Shown in pieces: positions 4,991 through 55,169 of a stretch of DNA of 59,384 bases (its first letter is position 1; every line of letters starts with the position of its first letter). The notes below the pieces were generated by a model that saw nothing but the letters and a program-made list of their open reading frames with translations, was not told where the DNA came from and searched no databases. A program made the translations under genes and the position numbers. Origin of the DNA: an uncultured Pseudomonadota bacterium (GTDB taxonomy: Bacteria; Pseudomonadota; Gammaproteobacteria; Steroidobacterales; Steroidobacteraceae). The stretch is from contig CAIUGU010000154.1 in the NCBI GenBank assembly GCA_903898785.1, positions 1 through 59,384 of the forward strand, in the 5' to 3' direction.

Positions 4991-6325
4991 ATGACCGACA
5001 GCCCCAAGCCGCTCTCCCGCCGCGAAGTCCTCACCACCCTTGGAGTGGCCGCCAGCGCCGCCTCGCTCTGGCCGGCGGCTGCACACGCGGCCGCAGCCGA
5101 CCTGCCACTCTCGTCCCGGGAACTGTGGGAATGGGTGCGGGCACAGCCAGTCCTGCAGACCGGCATCGTTTATCTCGACACTGCGTCGACGGGACCGGCC
5201 CTCCGGACCGCCCTCGTCGCGGAGTACCGCAGCCGCGAGGCGATCAACCTCAACCACGGCGAGTACTCGCGCACGTGGCTCAGCCCGGCTGCGGTCACCC
5301 AGTTCGCGGAACGCATCGCTGCGTTCGCAGGCGCGGGAACGGACGAAGTGACGTTGACGACGGGAGCCACCGAGTCGCTGAACATCGTCGCGAACGGCCT
5401 GCCGCTGGAGGCGGGAGACGAGATCATCGTGACGACCCACGAACATGCTGCGCATCTGCACGCGTGGCTGTTGCAGGCCCGCAGGCGGGGCATCGTCGTG
5501 AAGCAGATCGGCATGCCGGCTCCGCTCGGGGATCCCGTCCAGATCCTCGAAGCCTTCACCGCCGCGATCACTCCCCGTACCCGCGTGCTGGCCATGAGCC
5601 ACGTGCTGTACAGCACGGGCACGGTGCTGCCGGTCCGCGAGATATGCGAACTCGCCCGCTCGCGCAACATCGTCTCGGTGGTCGACGGCGCGCAGGCGTT
5701 CGGCATGCTGAATTTTTCGCTCCGCGATCTCGGCTGCGACTTCTATGCGGCAAGTCTCGCGAAGTGGCTGAACGGCGGCCTTGGAACGGGCCTTCTCTAT
5801 GTCCGCGGCGAGTGGCTTGATCGCCTGTGGCCGATCGCAGCCGACGGCCCGACAGGCTGGAGCGAGGGCGGCAGCTTTGGCCTTGCCGATCCGGCCGATG
5901 CGGAACTGCGCTCCGGCTGGCCGGCGACGTTGCGCAAGTTCGGCACGAACTACCGCTCCTTCGTCCCCCTGTTCCAGGGACTCAATGTCGCCTTCGACCT
6001 GCAGGAGAGAATCGGACGCGCCCGCATCGAGGCCCGCGTTCGCGAACTGGCGATCTATGCGCAACTCAAGCTTCAGGAGGTCCGTGGACTCAGCGTCATC
6101 ACCCCGACCCATCCGTCCTTGTGGGCTGGCATCGTGTCGTTCACGATTCGCGGCCAGGACCTGAAGCCGCTCGCGTCGGCACTGGCGGAAAGGGAATCGA
6201 CCGTGATCCGCCATGTCGCCCACAGCGGCATCGCGTTCGAGGCACTGCGGGTTTCGCCCCATGTCTACAATTCGCACGAAGACATTGATCGACTGATCTT
6301 CGGCCTCAAGCAGCACATGGCCTGA
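4991..6325 (+). CDS. Tat-exported class V aminotransferase (isopenicillin N epimerase-like)
   Basis: A PLP enzyme of the aminotransferase class V fold, 444 residues. The N-terminus carries a twin-arginine signal (SRREVL followed by an Ala-rich stretch ending AHA), so it is predicted to be exported folded, with PLP, to the periplasm. The PLP lysine is in SLAKWLNGG, followed by GTGLLYV, typical of the family. Other family marks are TTGATESLN and VVDGAQAFG. Start ATG 4991 gives the natural Tat N-terminus; a TTG just upstream is less likely. The substrate is unknown; cysteine desulfurase-like and epimerase-like activities both occur in the family. The following membrane protein starts five bases after the stop. 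Confidence 0.85.
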   Translation: MTDSPKPLSRREVLTTLGVAASAASLWPAAAHAAAADLPLSSRELWEWVRAQPVLQTGIVYLDTASTGPALRTALVAEYRSREAINLNHGEYSRTWLSPAAVTQFAERIAAFAGAGTDEVTLTTGATESLNIVANGLPLEAGDEIIVTTHEHAAHLHAWLLQARRRGIVVKQIGMPAPLGDPVQILEAFTAAITPRTRVLAMSHVLYSTGTVLPVREICELARSRNIVSVVDGAQAFGMLNFSLRDLGCDFYAASLAKWLNGGLGTGLLYVRGEWLDRLWPIAADGPTGWSEGGSFGLADPADAELRSGWPATLRKFGTNYRSFVPLFQGLNVAFDLQERIGRARIEARVRELAIYAQLKLQEVRGLSVITPTHPSLWAGIVSFTIRGQDLKPLASALAERESTVIRHVAHSGIAFEALRVSPHVYNSHEDIDRLIFGLKQHMA

Positions 6326-48808: not shown

Positions 48809-49702
48809 TCAGGTCCGGGCGGCAATGCGCTCGGCCTGATTCCTGAGCAGGCGGCCAAAGCCGACGCCGTCGTAAAAGCGGTCCAGCAATGCCAGATCCG
48901 GGGGTCGGCGACGCAAGTCGCTGACCTCCGCTTGGATGGGCATATCGCAATAGATCCCGGTCAGCTGGCGCGCGAGGAAAGCCGCTTCCCGATAGTCCTT
49001 CAACTGTCCAGTGACGAACCCCGCATTACGCACCTTCAGCTTGGCTACCCGGTCCAGGTTCGCGTAGAGCTGGTCAAGCGAACTGAAATGCTTGAGCAGG
49101 ATCGACGCTGTCTTGCGGCCGATGCCGGGCACGCCGCGAATGTTGTCGACGGCGTCACCCGTGAGGGCCAGGAAGTCCGCAATGGCCTCCGGGTTGGCTC
49201 CAAAGCGCTCCTCGATGTCGTCGTACGCATAGCGGACATCGGCAACATAGTCCCAGAACTCGTCATCAGGCCCGACCAACTGGGCCAGGTCCTTGTCGCG
49301 CGTGACGATGACCGATGGCCTGCCACTCGCCCGCGCCCGCTTCGCCAGCGTGCCGATCACGTCATCGGCCTCGAACTCGGGACTCGAGTATTCAGCTAGC
49401 CCGAACGCACGGCAGAACTCACGACAGAGGCGAAACTGTTGCTTCAGTTCGAGCGGTGCAGGTTCACGGTGCGCCTTGTAGGGCGGGTAGATCCGGTTGC
49501 GGAATGAAGTCGCCAGGCTCTCGTCGAACGCCACCGCCATGTGCGTCGGGCCGACACTCTCGATGAGATCGCCGATGAACCTGGCGAAGCCATGCAAGGC
49601 ATTGACCGGCCGGCCGTCCAGGTCGGTCAGCGTCACGGGAACGGAGTGATAGGCGCGGAAGATGAAGACGGAAGCGTCGATCAGATAGACCGGGTCCGCC
49701 AC
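48809..49702 (-). CDS. 5'-3' exonuclease of the Pol I N-terminal (FEN/ExoIX) family
   Basis: A 297-residue flap-type nuclease. Acidic metal-binding residues are seen in LIDASVFIFRAYHS, VAFDESLATSFRN, EFEADDVIGTLA, VTRDKDL and LTGDAVDNIRGVPGIGRKTA; the last is the H3TH DNA-binding motif. There is no polymerase domain, so it is a stand-alone exonuclease. GTG 49702 is preferred (GAGAGG upstream); GTG 49750 would add a low-complexity stretch. It follows the HNH gene by 49 bases. Confidence 0.88.
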   Translation of the reverse strand: MADPVYLIDASVFIFRAYHSVPVTLTDLDGRPVNALHGFARFIGDLIESVGPTHMAVAFDESLATSFRNRIYPPYKAHREPAPLELKQQFRLCREFCRAFGLAEYSSPEFEADDVIGTLAKRARASGRPSVIVTRDKDLAQLVGPDDEFWDYVADVRYAYDDIEERFGANPEAIADFLALTGDAVDNIRGVPGIGRKTASILLKHFSSLDQLYANLDRVAKLKVRNAGFVTGQLKDYREAAFLARQLTGIYCDMPIQAEVSDLRRRPPDLALLDRFYDGVGFGRLLRNQAERIAART

Positions 49703-49751
49703 ACTGCCTCTCCCGGGGGCCGGAGGGTCCGACTCCTGCCTTGCAGGCACT

Positions 49752-50354
49752 TCAGACCTGCGCGTTGCGCAGTCGCGCGTGGAGCGGGCTGGTCCGCGGA
49801 AAATGGGCGATCAGGTATTCCATCTGGTCCGCGAGCACGCGCCGGCCCTTGAGATAGATGTATTCAGCATAGGTGGGCTTGAACGGCACGGCGATCAGCT
49901 GCAGACCGGCTTCCTCCGGCGTCTGCGATGCCTTGTGGTTGTTGCAGCGACGGCAGGCCGTCGCGACGTTCGTCCAGGTATCCCGCCCACCCTGGCTCAA
50001 AGGACGAATGTGGTCGCGCGACAGCAGGCTGCTCGGAAAGCGCAGGCCGCAATACAGGCAGAGATACGCATCCCGCTTGAAGAGCGTCTGGTTATTGAGG
50101 GGCGGCGTGTAATCGCCGCGAAGGTTGCCCGGGTTGTAACTGTGACCCGTGGTGGCAATGATGGAACTGACGTTCACCACGGTGCGCAGGCCGGTACGGG
50201 CATTGGTGCCGCCATACAAGCTGTATAGCGGCGTCCCGCATGCATAGGCGACCTGTTCGGTGTGGTAGAGTCTGACCGCGTCGCGATAGTCGATCCACTC
50301 GAGCGGCATGCCCGAGACGTCGGTCCTCAAGATTTCCTGAGAGAGGCTGATCAC
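49752..50354 (-). CDS. HNH endonuclease
   Basis: About 200 residues. The C-terminal half holds the HNH nuclease fold with a zinc-binding pair CLYCG and CRRCNNHKAS and the core SRDHIRPLSQGGRDTWTN. The N-terminal part (PLEWIDYRDAVRLY) resembles the widely conserved chromosomal HNH proteins of proteobacteria. GTG 50354 is the likely start; the frame is open to 50513. It is not linked to phage genes here. Function unproven. Confidence 0.82.
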   Translation of the reverse strand: MISLSQEILRTDVSGMPLEWIDYRDAVRLYHTEQVAYACGTPLYSLYGGTNARTGLRTVVNVSSIIATTGHSYNPGNLRGDYTPPLNNQTLFKRDAYLCLYCGLRFPSSLLSRDHIRPLSQGGRDTWTNVATACRRCNNHKASQTPEEAGLQLIAVPFKPTYAEYIYLKGRRVLADQMEYLIAHFPRTSPLHARLRNAQV

Positions 50355-50701
50355 GTTACACCGTGCCGGCCAGCTGACCGGCGATACTGATCCGATCCAC
50401 CCACCTACATCGCTGCGAAGCGCTATCGATGTCTGCCGTCCCGTGAAAGACGCAGCGGGATCCCCACGGGCCGATGCCCGCGTAAGATACGCGAGCCAGA
50501 TACCATAATTCAACGAGTTCGTTCGACGGCAACGCGCTACGCAACAGCTTGCGGGAAAGCGCGGCCGGTGATGTGGGCGGCTCGATGAAGCCCATCGAGG
50601 CCACGGACGACGCGATGGTGAAGGCCGCCATTCACGCCGCGGCCAGTCGGCCGTAGCGCAGCTGATCCTGTGCGAGAAGGCCGTCCGGCCGGGGTTTCCG
50701 G
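50355..50701. other. Gene-free region between the HNH gene and the DUF3106 gene
   Basis: About 350 bases upstream of the HNH gene. On the plus strand a short open frame ends at TAG 50654-50656 and encodes up to 50 residues (ending AAIHAAASRP), without ribosome site or family match; it may be a gene remnant. No hairpin followed by a U-tract is seen. Confidence 0.35.
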
Positions 50702-51193
50702 TTACTGCCTGCGTGCAGGCGGGCGGCGATTCTGCAGCCGCTCGCGTACCCGCTGGCGCTGTTCCGGCGTCAGCTGCCTGAACCGCTCGCGCAGCTCCTG
50801 CCTGCGTTCGGGCGAGAGGTCGCGGAACCGGCGGAAATTCTCGCGGAGCCGCGCCTGCTCATCCGGAGCCAAGTCCTGGAAATTCTGGTAGCGCTCGCGA
50901 ATCTGTGCGCGCTGCTCGTCCGTGAGAGACTGCCAACGACTGAAACGCTCGCTCGCCCTCTCACGCTGGTCGGGCGTCATGGCCAGCCATCTCTCCGTTC
51001 CCTTCGCCAGCGCCACTTGCCTGCCAGGAGGCAGTTGCTCCCAGTTGTTTTCAAAGCCGGCCAGGATCTGCTGCTGCTCCGCGGTGAGTTGGGACCACGT
51101 GATGCCCGGCGCATCTGCGGCATGTGCGGCACCGATGCAGAGGAGCAGCCCAACGACAGCCGCGTGCAACCAATGATGTAAATGTCGCTTCAT
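50702..51193 (-). CDS. DUF3106 periplasmic protein with repeated helical motifs
   Basis: A 163-residue protein with a signal peptide ending AAHA. The mature part consists of repeating helical units with the pattern W/F-x-x-L-T/S-x-E-Q/R-R-x-x-I/L-R-E-R, such as LTDEQRAQIRERYQNF and LSPERRQELRERFRQL, and an Arg/Gln-rich tail. This is the DUF3106 family. It is the last gene of the ECF sigma operon, and its start overlaps the upstream stop by four bases. Similar repeats resemble CpxP/Spy-like chaperone or stress sensors, but the role here is inference. Confidence 0.85.
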   Translation of the reverse strand: MKRHLHHWLHAAVVGLLLCIGAAHAADAPGITWSQLTAEQQQILAGFENNWEQLPPGRQVALAKGTERWLAMTPDQRERASERFSRWQSLTDEQRAQIRERYQNFQDLAPDEQARLRENFRRFRDLSPERRQELRERFRQLTPEQRQRVRERLQNRRPPARRQ

Positions 51194-51444
51194 TTTGACT
51201 CAACCGCCTTGGCTGCCTTCGGCGCAACCGCCTTGGAATTCGCTGGTGGGGGCTGTGCTTCAGCCACCTCGAAATCGGTCCAGTTGTCATCCGCGCCTTC
51301 CAGCGCGGCGAGATACTCGAGAAAGTCGGCGGGCACCGGCACCTTCGTCCGCGGGGGAGCGCTCTCCGCTGCGCCCGCACCCAACGGGAGCAGCATCGCT
51401 GCCGCAACCAGGGTCACGCCGTGCCTGTGGCGCTGGCTGTTCAA
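51190..51444 (-). CDS. Small exported hypothetical protein of the ECF sigma operon
   Basis: An 84-residue protein with a signal peptide ending GAGA, then PADFLEYLAALEGADDNWTDFE and an Ala/Pro/Lys-rich tail. It overlaps both neighbours by four bases, which supports a real gene. The acidic central segment resembles those of other small proteins between DUF3619 and DUF3106. No defined function. Confidence 0.75.
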   Translation of the reverse strand: MNSQRHRHGVTLVAAAMLLPLGAGAAESAPPRTKVPVPADFLEYLAALEGADDNWTDFEVAEAQPPPANSKAVAPKAAKAVESK

Positions 51445-51902
51445 CCCACGCCTCCGTTCGCGGCGGGCAGGTCCGTCTCCGCTTCGAGCCAGGAGTAGAA
51501 CTCGATCTCTTCAGCCAGCTCCAGGCTTTCGGCATCCGCCATGAGGGCAAGGTCATCGAATGCGGCGCCCGCCTCCGCATGCACGGCTACGCTCTGCGAT
51601 ACGGGAGTAGAGGTTGGCATGCCAACCCAGACGAGCGCGGCAATGACAACGACAGCCAGCCCCCCTGCCGGAGCGAGCCAGCCTCCCATCGGCAAGCCTC
51701 GCGGCTGAGAGGACGGCAGCTGCTCGAGCGCTGCATGACGCGCCCGCGTCAGGCGCGACCGCGTCCTGGCGTCCAGGTGCTCGACGCTGTCGAGCAGCAA
51801 GTCGCGGGCGCGTCCAGCAAAGGCAGTGTCAAGCGCCTCTTCGGTCCCGCTGCTGCCGTGAACGGGTGTGGCCCTTGCGGACCTCTCGTCAGCTGTATTC
51901 AC
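51441..51902 (-). CDS. DUF3619-type membrane protein, likely anti-sigma partner
   Basis: A 153-residue protein with GTG start 51902 overlapping the sigma stop (GTGA). Residues 1-70 are helical and carry LDARTRSRLTRARHAAL, typical of DUF3619; a transmembrane helix follows (GGLAVVVIAALVWVG), then an acidic C-terminus (LALMADAESLELAEEIEFYSWLE). The topology and position directly after an ECF sigma gene suggest an anti-sigma or sigma-modulating role. Confidence 0.75.
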   Translation of the reverse strand: MNTADERSARATPVHGSSGTEEALDTAFAGRARDLLLDSVEHLDARTRSRLTRARHAALEQLPSSQPRGLPMGGWLAPAGGLAVVVIAALVWVGMPTSTPVSQSVAVHAEAGAAFDDLALMADAESLELAEEIEFYSWLEAETDLPAANGGVG

Positions 51903-52525
51903 CAGGCCTCTCCCAGACGGGCACGTAACGTATGCACGGCCCGCGAATAATGCGTCTTCACGCTGCCTTCCGAACAGCCCATCACCGCTGCCGTCGCAGC
52001 GACATCCAGGCCTTCGATGGTCCGCAGCAGGAAAGCCTCGGACTGCCTGGCCGGAAGCTCGGCAACCGCGCTTTCCAGCTCGCGCAAGGCCTCGCCGTTC
52101 GCTACCAGTGCATCCGGCTCGGGCCTCCCGTCCGGCGCATCGATGCCGGGATCCTCCGCCGATTCGCCGTCTCCGGCGCCCGCAGGCCACCACGCAAAGA
52201 GGCGGTTACGCACCGACTTACGTCGCTGCGAATCGCGGATGCGGTTCTGCAGGATCCGGTAGAACAACGGCATCCATTCGGTCTCGGGCCGGTTGCCGTA
52301 ACGTCGCGCCAGCTGCAACATCGCATCCTGCACGACATCGAGCGCTTCCTCGGGATCGCGCAAGGCAATGCTCGCAATCCGGAACGCCCGTCTTTCGACA
52401 TTCGTCAGGAACTGATCCAGGGCGCGGGCAGAATTCAGACTGACATCCTCAGCAGGGGGGCGCCAACCAACGACAGCAGTGCCGTAAGGGCCCGTTTCGG
52501 CCGGAAGCGTAGCAGAGTGACCCAT
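51899..52525 (-). CDS. ECF-type RNA polymerase sigma factor
   Basis: A 208-residue sigma-70 family ECF factor. Region 2 (about residues 35-100) has RRAFRIASIALRDPEEALDVVQDAMLQL, and region 4 (about 150-205) reads ELPARQSEAFLLRTIEGLDVAATAAVMGCSEGSVKTH. A 40-residue acidic, Pro/Gly-rich linker separates them. Start ATG 52525 has AAGG eight bases upstream. It heads a four-gene overlapping operon with DUF3619, a small exported protein and DUF3106, an arrangement recurrent in beta- and gammaproteobacteria. Confidence 0.92.
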   Translation of the reverse strand: MGHSATLPAETGPYGTAVVGWRPPAEDVSLNSARALDQFLTNVERRAFRIASIALRDPEEALDVVQDAMLQLARRYGNRPETEWMPLFYRILQNRIRDSQRRKSVRNRLFAWWPAGAGDGESAEDPGIDAPDGRPEPDALVANGEALRELESAVAELPARQSEAFLLRTIEGLDVAATAAVMGCSEGSVKTHYSRAVHTLRARLGEAW

Positions 52526-52594
52526 GGCTGCTGCCTTGACGCTCTTCCTCGAATCTCCACCGCGACATCAATGCCGACCAGCCGCAACTCTGTG

Positions 52595-52623
52595 TATAAC
52601 GTGCCACACCCGCCGGGGTTGAC
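52595..52623 (-). promoter_or_regulatory. Candidate ECF-type promoter for the sigma operon
   Basis: On the minus strand GTCAACC is followed 15-16 bases later by CGTTATA, resembling the AACC...CGTT architecture of ECF promoters. It ends about 70 bases before the sigma ATG and would allow autoregulation. No SELEX-type evidence is possible here. Confidence 0.3.
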
Positions 52624-52847
52624 GCCGCCTTCAAGGGGGCTTTTGTCCGACCTTTCATCCACCTGCGAGCAGATGTCACGAGACGATGTGAAGAGCCGGC
52701 ACAGCAGCGAGCGGCGTCGGTCCTTTTCGGATAGCATAAGTCGATGTTTTTATTAATTTTATTCTCCTCTTTTTGGCCTGCGATCATTTGTTGAGCAGCC
52801 GGCAAAACCCACAATCGAAATGCCCACTTGGATACTTTTGCCCCAAC

Positions 52848-52882
52848 TCATCCACAGAGTTATCCACAGCTTTTGTGGACAA
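52848..52882 (+). promoter_or_regulatory. Cluster of three DnaA boxes upstream of priA
   Basis: TCATCCACA (52848-52856, one mismatch), TTATCCACA (52860-52868, perfect) and, on the opposite strand, TTGTCCACA (52882-52874, one mismatch). The last two face each other as an inverted pair. Confidence 0.75.
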
Positions 52883-52949
52883 CTTTCCATAATGGGCAAC
52901 CGACGGCGAGGCTTGTGACCCTGCACGCGAACGGGACCGGTTGCTGACG

Positions 52950-55169
52950 ATGGACGGGTACCTGAGCATCGCGATCGATACGCCGTTGCGGCGGTTGTTC
53001 GACTACCGTCCGCCGGAAGGGATGGCTGCCGGGAGCCTGGTTCCAGGGCAACGGCTCTGGGTGCCGTTCGGCAAGCGCCGGACGATCGGGATCCTGGTGG
53101 GACATCAACGGCAGACTTCGCTCGCAGAGCACAAGGTTCGTCGAGCGTTCGAGCTCATCGACACCGACCCGGTGTTCGACAAGGTCCTGCTGGACCTGCT
53201 GCTCTGGTCGGCCGACTACTACAGGCACCCTGTCGGCGAGGTGCTTGCTGCGGCCCTGCCAGGTGCCCTCAGAAAAGGGGCGGGCGTGGAGTCCATCGAA
53301 CGAAGCTGGCTGCTGACACCTGCAGGTCAGCAAGAGGCGGAGTCCTTGATCAGCCCGCGTGCCACCCGTCTGCTCGCGCTCGTGCGGACATTGCGGGAGT
53401 CTGGCTCGGACGCCGGCATGACCGCGGAAGCATTGGACGTCGCGCTGCCTGGCTGGCGGGACGCTGCCCGCAACCTGATCGACCGGGGAATGGTGCAGCA
53501 GGTTGAACGACGACCCAGCAAGAACAGCGCACAGACAGGTGTCAGGCTACAGGGTCCTGAACTGGGCGAGGCACAACGGGCAGCGATCGCAAGCATCGAG
53601 GCTAACCTGAACGGGTTTGCGACTCTGCTGCTGGATGGCGTCACCGGCAGCGGCAAGACCGAGGTCTACCTGAGTGCGATCGAAACCGTCCTCGCCACGG
53701 GGAAGCAGGCACTGGTACTGGTCCCCGAGATTGCACTGACGCCGCAACTGACCCAGCGATTCGCCGATCGCTTCGCTGCACCGCTGGCCGTGCTGCATTC
53801 CTCGCTCACGGATGCGGAGCGGCTTGCCGCCTGGCGCAGCGCGAAGAGCGGAGCGGCAGGAATCGTCATCGGCACTCGCTCCGCCGTCTTCGCGCCGCTC
53901 GCGCGCCCTGGCCTCATCGTCGTCGATGAGGAACATGATGCGTCCTACAAGCAGCAGGAGGGCTTCCGGTATTCCGGGCGCGATCTCGCCATTGCCCGCG
54001 CGCAGCGGCACGGCGTTCCTGTCGTCCTGGGGTCGGCGACGCCGTCGCTGGAAAGCCTCGCAAGGTTGGCGCGCCCTGGTGCTCGCGCCCCGAGCGGACA
54101 TCTTGTGTTGCCACAACGAGCAGGCGCTGCAACGGCGCCGCGAATGGGCGTGATCGACCTGCGCCAGCACGCCGCAAACCAGGGGCTGTCGACACCGGCC
54201 ATGCTGGCCATGCGCCGTCATCTCGATGCCGGCGGGCAGGTGCTGCTGTACCTGAACCGTCGCGGCTACGCGCCCGCGCTGTTCTGCCCGGGCTGCGGTT
54301 GGGCTGCTCCGTGTCCGAGCTGCGATGCGCGGCTGACAGTGCACCGGCAAGACAACAAGCTGGTCTGCCATCACTGTGCGCGGGAACAGCCTATTCCCGC
54401 AGCCTGCCCGGTGTGCCAGGCCCCGACGAAGCCGGTGGGCCAGGGCACCGAACGCATCGAGGAATCCCTCGGCGCCATCTTTCCAGGCGTGCCACTGGTC
54501 CGCATCGATCGCGACAGCACCCGGCGCAAGGGCGAGCTCGACGCCGCGATGGAGCGGATCCACAGCGGCGCCGCGCGTATCCTCGTCGGTACGCAGATGC
54601 TCACGAAAGGCCATCACTTTCCCGACGTCACGCTGGTGATCGTCATGAATGCCGACCAGGGACTGTTCAGCACGGACTTCCGCGCGAGCGAGCGCCTTGC
54701 ACAGAGCATCATCCAGGTTGCAGGACGTGCGGGGCGCGCCTCCCGTCCTGGCGAAGTCCTGATCCAGACGGAGTACCCCGACCATCCTCTCCTGCAGCAA
54801 CTTCTAGCCGGCGGCTACGGCGCATTCGCAACGGCGGCGCTCAAGGAGCGAGAGGCTGCCGGGTGGCCGCCGTTCAGCAGGCTGGCGCTGATTCGCGCAG
54901 AAGCGACCACGGAGGAACCTCCGATGCGATTCCTGGCGGCGGCCCGACGGATCGCATTGCCCGTCGGGCGCAAGGTGTCTCTACTGGGTCCGGCACCGGC
55001 GCCGATGCAACGCCGCGGCGATCGCTACCGTGCGCAGCTGCTGCTGCAGGCAGGAACCCCGTCGCCGTTGCAGATGTTCCTTGCAGCGTGGATCACGCAG
55101 CTCGAGGACCTGCCGGAATCCCGCAAGGTGCGCTGGTCCGTGGATGTGGATCCACTCGAACTGTTCTGA
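52950..55169 (+). CDS. priA: Primosomal replication restart helicase PriA
   Basis: A 739-residue DEAH-type helicase that reloads DnaB at stalled forks. The N-terminal DNA-binding domain begins YLSIAIDTPLRRLFDYRPP. Walker A is GVTGSGKTEVYL, Walker B VVDEEHDASYKQ. Eight Cys of the zinc region are visible: CPGCG, CPSC, CHHC and CPVC. Start ATG 52950 is preferred; TTG 52941 is just upstream. Upstream lies the DnaA-box cluster. argS follows 86 bases later. Confidence 0.96.
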   Translation: MDGYLSIAIDTPLRRLFDYRPPEGMAAGSLVPGQRLWVPFGKRRTIGILVGHQRQTSLAEHKVRRAFELIDTDPVFDKVLLDLLLWSADYYRHPVGEVLAAALPGALRKGAGVESIERSWLLTPAGQQEAESLISPRATRLLALVRTLRESGSDAGMTAEALDVALPGWRDAARNLIDRGMVQQVERRPSKNSAQTGVRLQGPELGEAQRAAIASIEANLNGFATLLLDGVTGSGKTEVYLSAIETVLATGKQALVLVPEIALTPQLTQRFADRFAAPLAVLHSSLTDAERLAAWRSAKSGAAGIVIGTRSAVFAPLARPGLIVVDEEHDASYKQQEGFRYSGRDLAIARAQRHGVPVVLGSATPSLESLARLARPGARAPSGHLVLPQRAGAATAPRMGVIDLRQHAANQGLSTPAMLAMRRHLDAGGQVLLYLNRRGYAPALFCPGCGWAAPCPSCDARLTVHRQDNKLVCHHCAREQPIPAACPVCQAPTKPVGQGTERIEESLGAIFPGVPLVRIDRDSTRRKGELDAAMERIHSGAARILVGTQMLTKGHHFPDVTLVIVMNADQGLFSTDFRASERLAQSIIQVAGRAGRASRPGEVLIQTEYPDHPLLQQLLAGGYGAFATAALKEREAAGWPPFSRLALIRAEATTEEPPMRFLAAARRIALPVGRKVSLLGPAPAPMQRRGDRYRAQLLLQAGTPSPLQMFLAAWITQLEDLPESRKVRWSVDVDPLELF

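Follow-up and report, generated by a model that had tools for sequence, protein, structure and literature searches.

The intergenic region upstream of priA, the gene of the replication restart helicase, raises a simple question: what do three closely spaced DnaA boxes do there, between a minus-strand gene block and the plus-strand genes priA and argS? The boxes lie in a 59,384-nucleotide stretch of bacterial DNA, the whole of which is called the window below. The preliminary description of this DNA placed two readings side by side, namely that DnaA controls priA or that the boxes belong to a fragment of a locus related to replication, and it spoke against the main origin. In our best reading, the element is neither an origin nor mainly a priA operator. 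With a probability of roughly 0.72, we take it to be a DARS-type DnaA-reactivation site, most like DARS2 of E. coli, a reading drawn from anatomy and conservation at the level of sequence, with nucleotide exchange assumed by analogy.

Gene calls and Pfam matches confirm that the minus-strand block meets priA and argS, and both the AT-rich stretch and the three boxes within 35 bases, two of them inverted relative to each other, are present as first described (Table 1). From left to right, the region contains an isolated DnaA box, an AT-rich run that opens with an IHF-like site, a Fis site, and the three boxes. The gaps between the three boxes are 3 and 5 nt, giving start-to-start spacings of 12 nt (52848 to 52860) and 14 nt (52860 to 52874), and the boxes at 52860 and 52874 are convergent. 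The box at 52860 is the best conserved in the alignment of priA cores (alignment A1). The start codon of priA is most likely the ATG at 52950, 67 bp from the core. The IHF-like site of the window lies 13 bp farther out than its usual position, which is near -98 in most relatives. The isolated box is also found in the congener (G001), and several relatives carry, instead of TTATACACA, an opposite-strand box (TTATGCACA, TTATTCACA, or TTACGCACA) that precedes the middle box of the core by about 180-190 bp.

Table 1. Coordinates of the features in and around the intergenic region upstream of priA (window positions).
Feature	Position	Strand	Remarks
Minus-strand block	48809-52525	-	5'-3' exonuclease, HNH endonuclease, DUF3106 protein, sigma-70-family factor
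Stand-alone 5'-3' exonuclease	48809-49750	-	Part of the minus-strand block
Sigma factor	51899-52525	-	Part of the minus-strand block
Intergenic region	52526-52949		Holds the element; sigma-factor gene on one side, priA on the other
Isolated DnaA box TTATACACA	52591-52599	-	Perfect; near the start of the sigma-factor gene
Weak IHF-like site TAAGTCGATGTTT	52737-52749	n/a	2 mismatches to TAANNNNTTGATW; at -111
AT-rich run	52737-52776	n/a	75% A+T vs 35% for the whole window
Fis-consensus site GATCATTTGTTGAGC	52782-52796	n/a	GNNYANNNNNTRNNC with 0 mismatches; at -66 relative to the start of the core
Whole core, putatively of DARS type	52845-52885	+	Match to model R1, 48.3 bits (the window sequence is part of R1)
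DnaA box TCATCCACA	52848-52856	+	1 mismatch to TTWTNCACA; equivalent of DARS core box III
DnaA box TTATCCACA	52860-52868	+	Perfect; equivalent of DARS core box II
DnaA box TTGTCCACA	52874-52882	-	1 mismatch; equivalent of DARS core box I, faces box II
priA, replication restart helicase	52950-55169	+	Pfam PriA_3primeBD, PriA_C, DEAD, Zn_ribbon_PriA

We defined the ordered triple as > N3 > N5 <, with at most one mismatch in each box and on either strand. It occurs once in the window and is absent from 800 kb sampled from the relative G011, whose priA core straddles two of the samples. Comparison of a 241-base region with plasmids gave no match, and a scan of positions 52400-53100 for sigma-70-like promoters found none, which is weak evidence.

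DARS elements have been studied in E. coli. Two stretches of E. coli K-12, 20,002 bases in total, served as controls: one spanning bioD and uvrB, between which we take DARS1 to lie, and one spanning rppH and mutH, between which DARS2 presumably lies. Primers for mutH are named in PMC8682772. The bioD-uvrB stretch has boxes at 5108 (+), 5122 (-), and 5134 (-), and the rppH-mutH stretch at 2136 (+), 2150 (-), and 2162 (-). Both triples have start-to-start spacings of 14 and 12 nt, which is the window core on the opposite strand; in other words, they are its mirror image. An equal box spacing in DARS1 and DARS2, with box I opposite to boxes II and III, is likewise described in PMC5742627. The triple at 2136, treated here as the DARS2 core, is the only one in the rppH-mutH stretch with at most two mismatches per box; a second possible triple (2466, 2478, and a poor box near 2452) has the same spacing by eye and may be the DARS2 core of the published papers. 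Without gaps, the window core shares 28 of 37 bases with DARS1 and 21 of 37 with the rppH-mutH triple.

The relatives were surveyed in a set of 59 genomes, comprising the source genome and 58 others from its genus, family, and order. All 59 have priA, and the region upstream of it was read in 50. The preliminary description had pointed to conservation of the boxes in relatives as a check, and a triple in DARS geometry was found in 24 of these 50 regions at up to three mismatches per box (18 at up to two, 8 at up to one), with a further triple, in G036, to be added to the 24. Two genomes (G010 and G049) have two boxes only, and 24 regions have neither triple nor pair. Because 26 of the 50 regions are without the triple, the priA copy is dispensable in this group, a point against the DARS reading. 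The first box of the core is the poorest of the three, often with up to three mismatches, and this weighs against the DARS reading. Aligning the priA regions brings out three conserved blocks, namely the core and two others that resemble an IHF site and a Fis site. Of the 26 regions in the alignment, 13 have the full Fis consensus, at offsets of -66 to -68 relative to where the core starts. Some relatives have cores closer to the ATG than the window has, and in G035 the boxes nearly touch the start codon. Upstream of priA in G039 (L069), TTATCCACA, TTTTCCACA, TTATCCACA, and an inverted TTATCCACA lie within about 41 bp, in an arrangement other than DARS geometry.

From 24 of the 26 aligned priA cores we built a sequence-only model, R1, leaving out G010 and G049 with their two intact boxes. 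R1 holds no E. coli sequence, and its best match in the two E. coli stretches is DARS1, with 23.2 bits (E = 7.6e-7 for 20 kb). The rppH-mutH triple comes second with only 11.7 bits, which weighs against the DARS reading. Over the 59 genomes, R1 has a match at E ≤ 0.05 in 57, a few of them weak (0.005 in G053, 1.4e-4 in G046). In 48 of the 59, a core precedes an rpmE gene of the same strand by about 80-250 bp, as judged from tblastn contexts, and hemW was recognised on the other side of it in 46 of these 48 (the exceptions are G040 and G047). Twenty genomes, among them the congener G001, have both an rpmE core and a priA core; a priA core only was found in the source genome itself (G000, a MAG of 77.7% completeness) and in G032, G043, G048, and G056. 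Neighbour names follow Pfam matches of the query proteins: HemN_C/Radical_SAM for hemW, Ribosomal_L31 for rpmE, Citrate_synt for gltA, DNA_pol_A for polA, ParA/FeS_assembly_P for mrp, tRNA-synt_1g for metG, and Secretin for gspD. Eight loci without a recognised neighbour stand outside the context counts (L284 in G005, L286 in G006, L245 in G022, L296 in G038, L291 in G039, L301 in G046, L240 in G052, and L293 in G054), and L302, L303, and L304 are duplicates of L257, L259, and L261.

The surroundings of the rpmE cores provide an independent test of the Fis/IHF layout, because R1 was trained without the rpmE copies and holds no Fis or IHF sites. A Fis consensus lies near -66 (-68 to -64) in 34 of the 48 cores, and an IHF site with at most one mismatch lies near -98 (-101 to -95) in 33; both are present in 24 and neither in 5. 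All other offsets summed gave 9 Fis matches and 1 IHF match. These figures are counts and not probabilities, because related genomes are not independent of one another. The fis gene was found in 57 of the 59 genomes, including the source genome, whose Fis is 59% identical to that of E. coli, and hda scored over the cut-off in 56, again including the source genome. For ihfA (IHF alpha), 54 genomes have a match over the cut-off, including the congener, and the 77.7% complete source MAG gave none; this, like the weakness and the displaced position of the IHF-like site in the window, counts against the DARS reading.

The distance of these sites from dnaA could be obtained in seven relatives. The priA site and the rpmE core lie on opposite sides of dnaA in G011 (211 and 86 kb), in G021 (199 and 95 kb), and in G049, the genome with two boxes at priA (98 and 65 kb). 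In G045, priA is 97 kb from dnaA, and the rpmE core is 212 kb away in G028, 45 kb in G030, and 33 kb in G004.

Set beside the E. coli sites, the element resembles DARS2 in the order and gaps of its three core boxes and in having, on the side of box III, a Fis consensus site and an IHF-like site, the latter weak in the window. It differs in the arrangement of these sites: the Fis site (-66) sits between the core and the IHF-like site (about -98 in most relatives), but the DARS2 stretch of E. coli has its IHF consensus sites, at 2229 and 2245 (one mismatch each), closer to the core than the Fis site at 2281; this counts against the DARS reading. The neighbours also differ, being priA and rpmE here, and so does the chromosomal position: the sites in relatives are 33-212 kb from dnaA, whereas the triple of E. 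coli, located at about 2.97 Mb, is about 0.95 Mb from oriC, which PMC5742627 puts at 3.92 Mb; this difference, too, weighs against the DARS reading. With DARS1, the element shares an identical core geometry and the base identity given above, but DARS1 is described as independent of IHF and Fis, in contrast to DARS2 (PMC8682772), and here the core is accompanied by a Fis site and by an IHF-like one. Because the core geometry is that of the E. coli DARS core and the same element occurs at other genes, the part of the preliminary description that spoke of a replication-related locus is supported; the other part, pure control of priA, is unlikely because the same element stands upstream of rpmE and elsewhere in relatives.

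The element is not restricted to this order. A scan of named genomes with a 31-base core pattern gave at least 118 loci, some of them on contigs of the 58 relatives. Titles are known for 80 loci: most are from gammaproteobacteria or their subgroups, some from betaproteobacteria (Nitrosomonas, Rhodocyclus, Rhodocyclaceae, and Propionivibrio), and one is labelled Clostridia. Among the matches listed, those whose priA loci resemble that of the window are labelled, for example, Steroidobacteraceae, Chromatiales, or Lysobacterales bacterium, which makes a gammaproteobacterium close to these the likely source. By context, 47 of the at least 118 loci immediately precede priA in the same orientation and 2 more are beside a divergent priA, 15 are upstream of rpmE, 9 are at mrp-metG, 8 are near gsp genes or polA, and 37 are unclassified. 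A sigma-70-family gene recurs at 17 of the at least 118 loci, mostly on the minus strand and to the left of the core.

Fis sites were sought at -66 ± 2 and IHF sites at -99 ± 5; four of the 118 loci (two at priA, two other) were set aside because their upstream DNA was too short. Fis sites were found at 26 of 47 and IHF sites at 23 of 47 usable priA loci, at 14 and 10 of 15 rpmE loci, at 5 and 8 of 8 gsp-polA loci, and at 14 and 14 of 35 other loci. The nine mrp-metG cores have no Fis site and no IHF site at the usual offsets, which weighs against the DARS reading; perhaps they represent a DARS1-like form. These nine (L118, L121, L134, L172, L175, L182, L192, L197, and L230) include seven titled Thioalkalivibrio and two with no title shown.

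In a class-wide sample of 369 genomes, five of which are the source genome or related ones, R1 has a match at E ≤ 0.001 in 317, any partial matches included. The 28 new best loci from this sample lie at priA (14), at rpmE (5), near polA (1), or beside an unrecognised neighbour (8). Some genomes have many R1 matches (11 in G098, 10 in G238), part of which may be the same site counted on both strands, and G289 has two cores 380 bp apart (L319, G289:C209).

How does the DARS reading fare against other explanations of the same DNA? One is that the locus lowers free or ATP-bound DnaA, either by titration or by datA-like hydrolysis of DnaA-ATP. Like datA of E. coli, it combines high-affinity DnaA boxes with an IHF-like site and, in the seven relatives, lies close to the origin, as is indicated for datA in PMC5742627. 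According to the same paper, however, the essential boxes of datA all point in one direction and have the IHF site between boxes 2 and 3, whereas here the third box is inverted and the IHF-like site is outside the core. Titration, for its part, requires neither a fixed geometry of 3 and 5 nt nor a fixed Fis offset. We consider this explanation unlikely.

Another possibility is that the boxes form a DnaA-responsive operator, linking transcription of priA to DnaA activity. The proximity of the core to the priA ATG, closer still in some relatives, would fit, and priA is the commonest recognised neighbour in both the pattern scan and the class-wide sample. The occurrence of the same element, with the same Fis and IHF offsets, upstream of rpmE in 48 of the 59 genomes, near polA, and elsewhere argues against it, as do the near contact of the boxes with the start codon in G035 and, more weakly, the negative result of the promoter scan. 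An operator function as the main role thus seems quite unlikely. The element may also influence the transcription of priA as a side effect, but this cannot account for the copies at other genes.

It was also considered that the locus is a main, alternative, or former chromosomal origin, and conservation of the boxes at first favoured an oriC at priA. An AT-rich run, an IHF-like site, DnaA boxes, and divergent genes do occur together here, and the window reaches its minimum of cumulative GC skew at roughly 54-57 kb. The preliminary description had reported no dnaA or dnaN nearby, and indeed the source genome has its single dnaA match on a different contig (C244), followed by dnaN as seen by eye. 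The main oriC is most likely between these two genes. Judged by eye, the dnaA-dnaN regions seen in the source genome and in relatives contain boxes as well as TAA/TAG repeats within an AT-rich tract. This holds equally where a priA core is lacking, and several relatives have an IHF-like TAANNNNTTGAT motif there. At positions 1664-1920 of L001 (G000:C244), a perfect box and a one-mismatch box are followed by an AT-rich tract with TAATAGTAATAAC, and relatives look similar by eye. The present element shares with these regions perfect DnaA boxes and, in several relatives, the TAANNNNTTGAT motif; the dnaA-dnaN region differs in its box spacing and in the TAATAATAGTAATAAC-like repeats of its AT-rich tract next to dnaN, and R1 matches this region of G011 only partially (model positions 5-28).

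The position of dif bears on the same point. In both single-contig relatives, G028 without and G011 with a priA core, dif is opposite dnaA and not opposite priA: dnaA is within 2 kb (G028) and 13 kb (G011) of the dif antipode, and priA is about 152 and 224 kb from it. In 40 sampled 20-kb stretches of G011, GC skew is weak and does not separate priA from dnaA, and neither do the KOPS counts between these two genes, at 6 forward and 8 reverse. Two such elements per genome also suit an origin poorly. An oriC at priA was dropped in view of the origin-like dnaA-dnaN regions, with and without a priA core, and of dif opposite dnaA; an origin of any kind here is very improbable, in agreement with the argument of the preliminary description. 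That description had set against its own proposal a normal oriC elsewhere combined with boxes lacking in relatives; such an oriC appears to exist, and the boxes are clearly conserved. Finally, single boxes (at most one mismatch) are indeed at chance density in the window (9 against 8.68 expected), but a chance cluster can practically be dismissed, because none of 200 simulated first-order Markov windows of the same length contains the ordered triple and the core is conserved over the order and the class.

If the element is a DARS-type site, the following course of events may be envisaged by analogy with E. coli, from which DnaA binding, nucleotide exchange, and cell-cycle gating are all extrapolated. 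ADP-DnaA would bind the three boxes, and the convergent pair would set two DnaA AAA+ domains head to head, so that the resulting strain could make ADP leave; apo-DnaA would then be released and take up ATP. Fis would bind at a distance of 66 bp and IHF at one of about 98-111 bp, both of them bending the DNA and gating the reaction. PMC8682772 describes DnaA as head to head on DARS boxes I and II and DARS2 as needing IHF and Fis. The sites at priA and rpmE, which in relatives lie 33-212 kb from dnaA, may jointly help to time the next initiation.

Among the open-access papers listed by our searches, judged by titles and the beginnings of abstracts, we found no description of a DARS at priA or rpmE. 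One paper on DARS (PMC4245941) reports that gammaproteobacteria akin to E. coli share a conserved DARS2 core. I would speculate, tentatively, that the ancestral DnaA cycle of gammaproteobacteria used an origin-proximal pair of DARS elements gated by Fis and IHF, one at priA and one at rpmE, flanking the dnaA-dnaN origin in some genomes, and that the mid-chromosome DARS1 and DARS2 of E. coli are its relocated and rearranged descendant; this is doubtful enough to be held only as a possibility.

If the elements work alike, reactivation of DnaA at DNA sites would be class-wide (317 of the 369 genomes sampled), often at priA or rpmE, and close to the origin in the relatives measured. If true, this would provide testable sites in many species, and, because the E. 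coli sites are far from oriC, it can be asked whether chromosomal position sets the timing of initiation. The box triple > N3 > N5 <, together with Fis at -66 and IHF at -98, would be a practical DARS finder for unstudied genomes. A DnaA-reactivation site kept at the gene of the restart helicase could couple the recharging of DnaA with the restart of forks or with early gene dosage.
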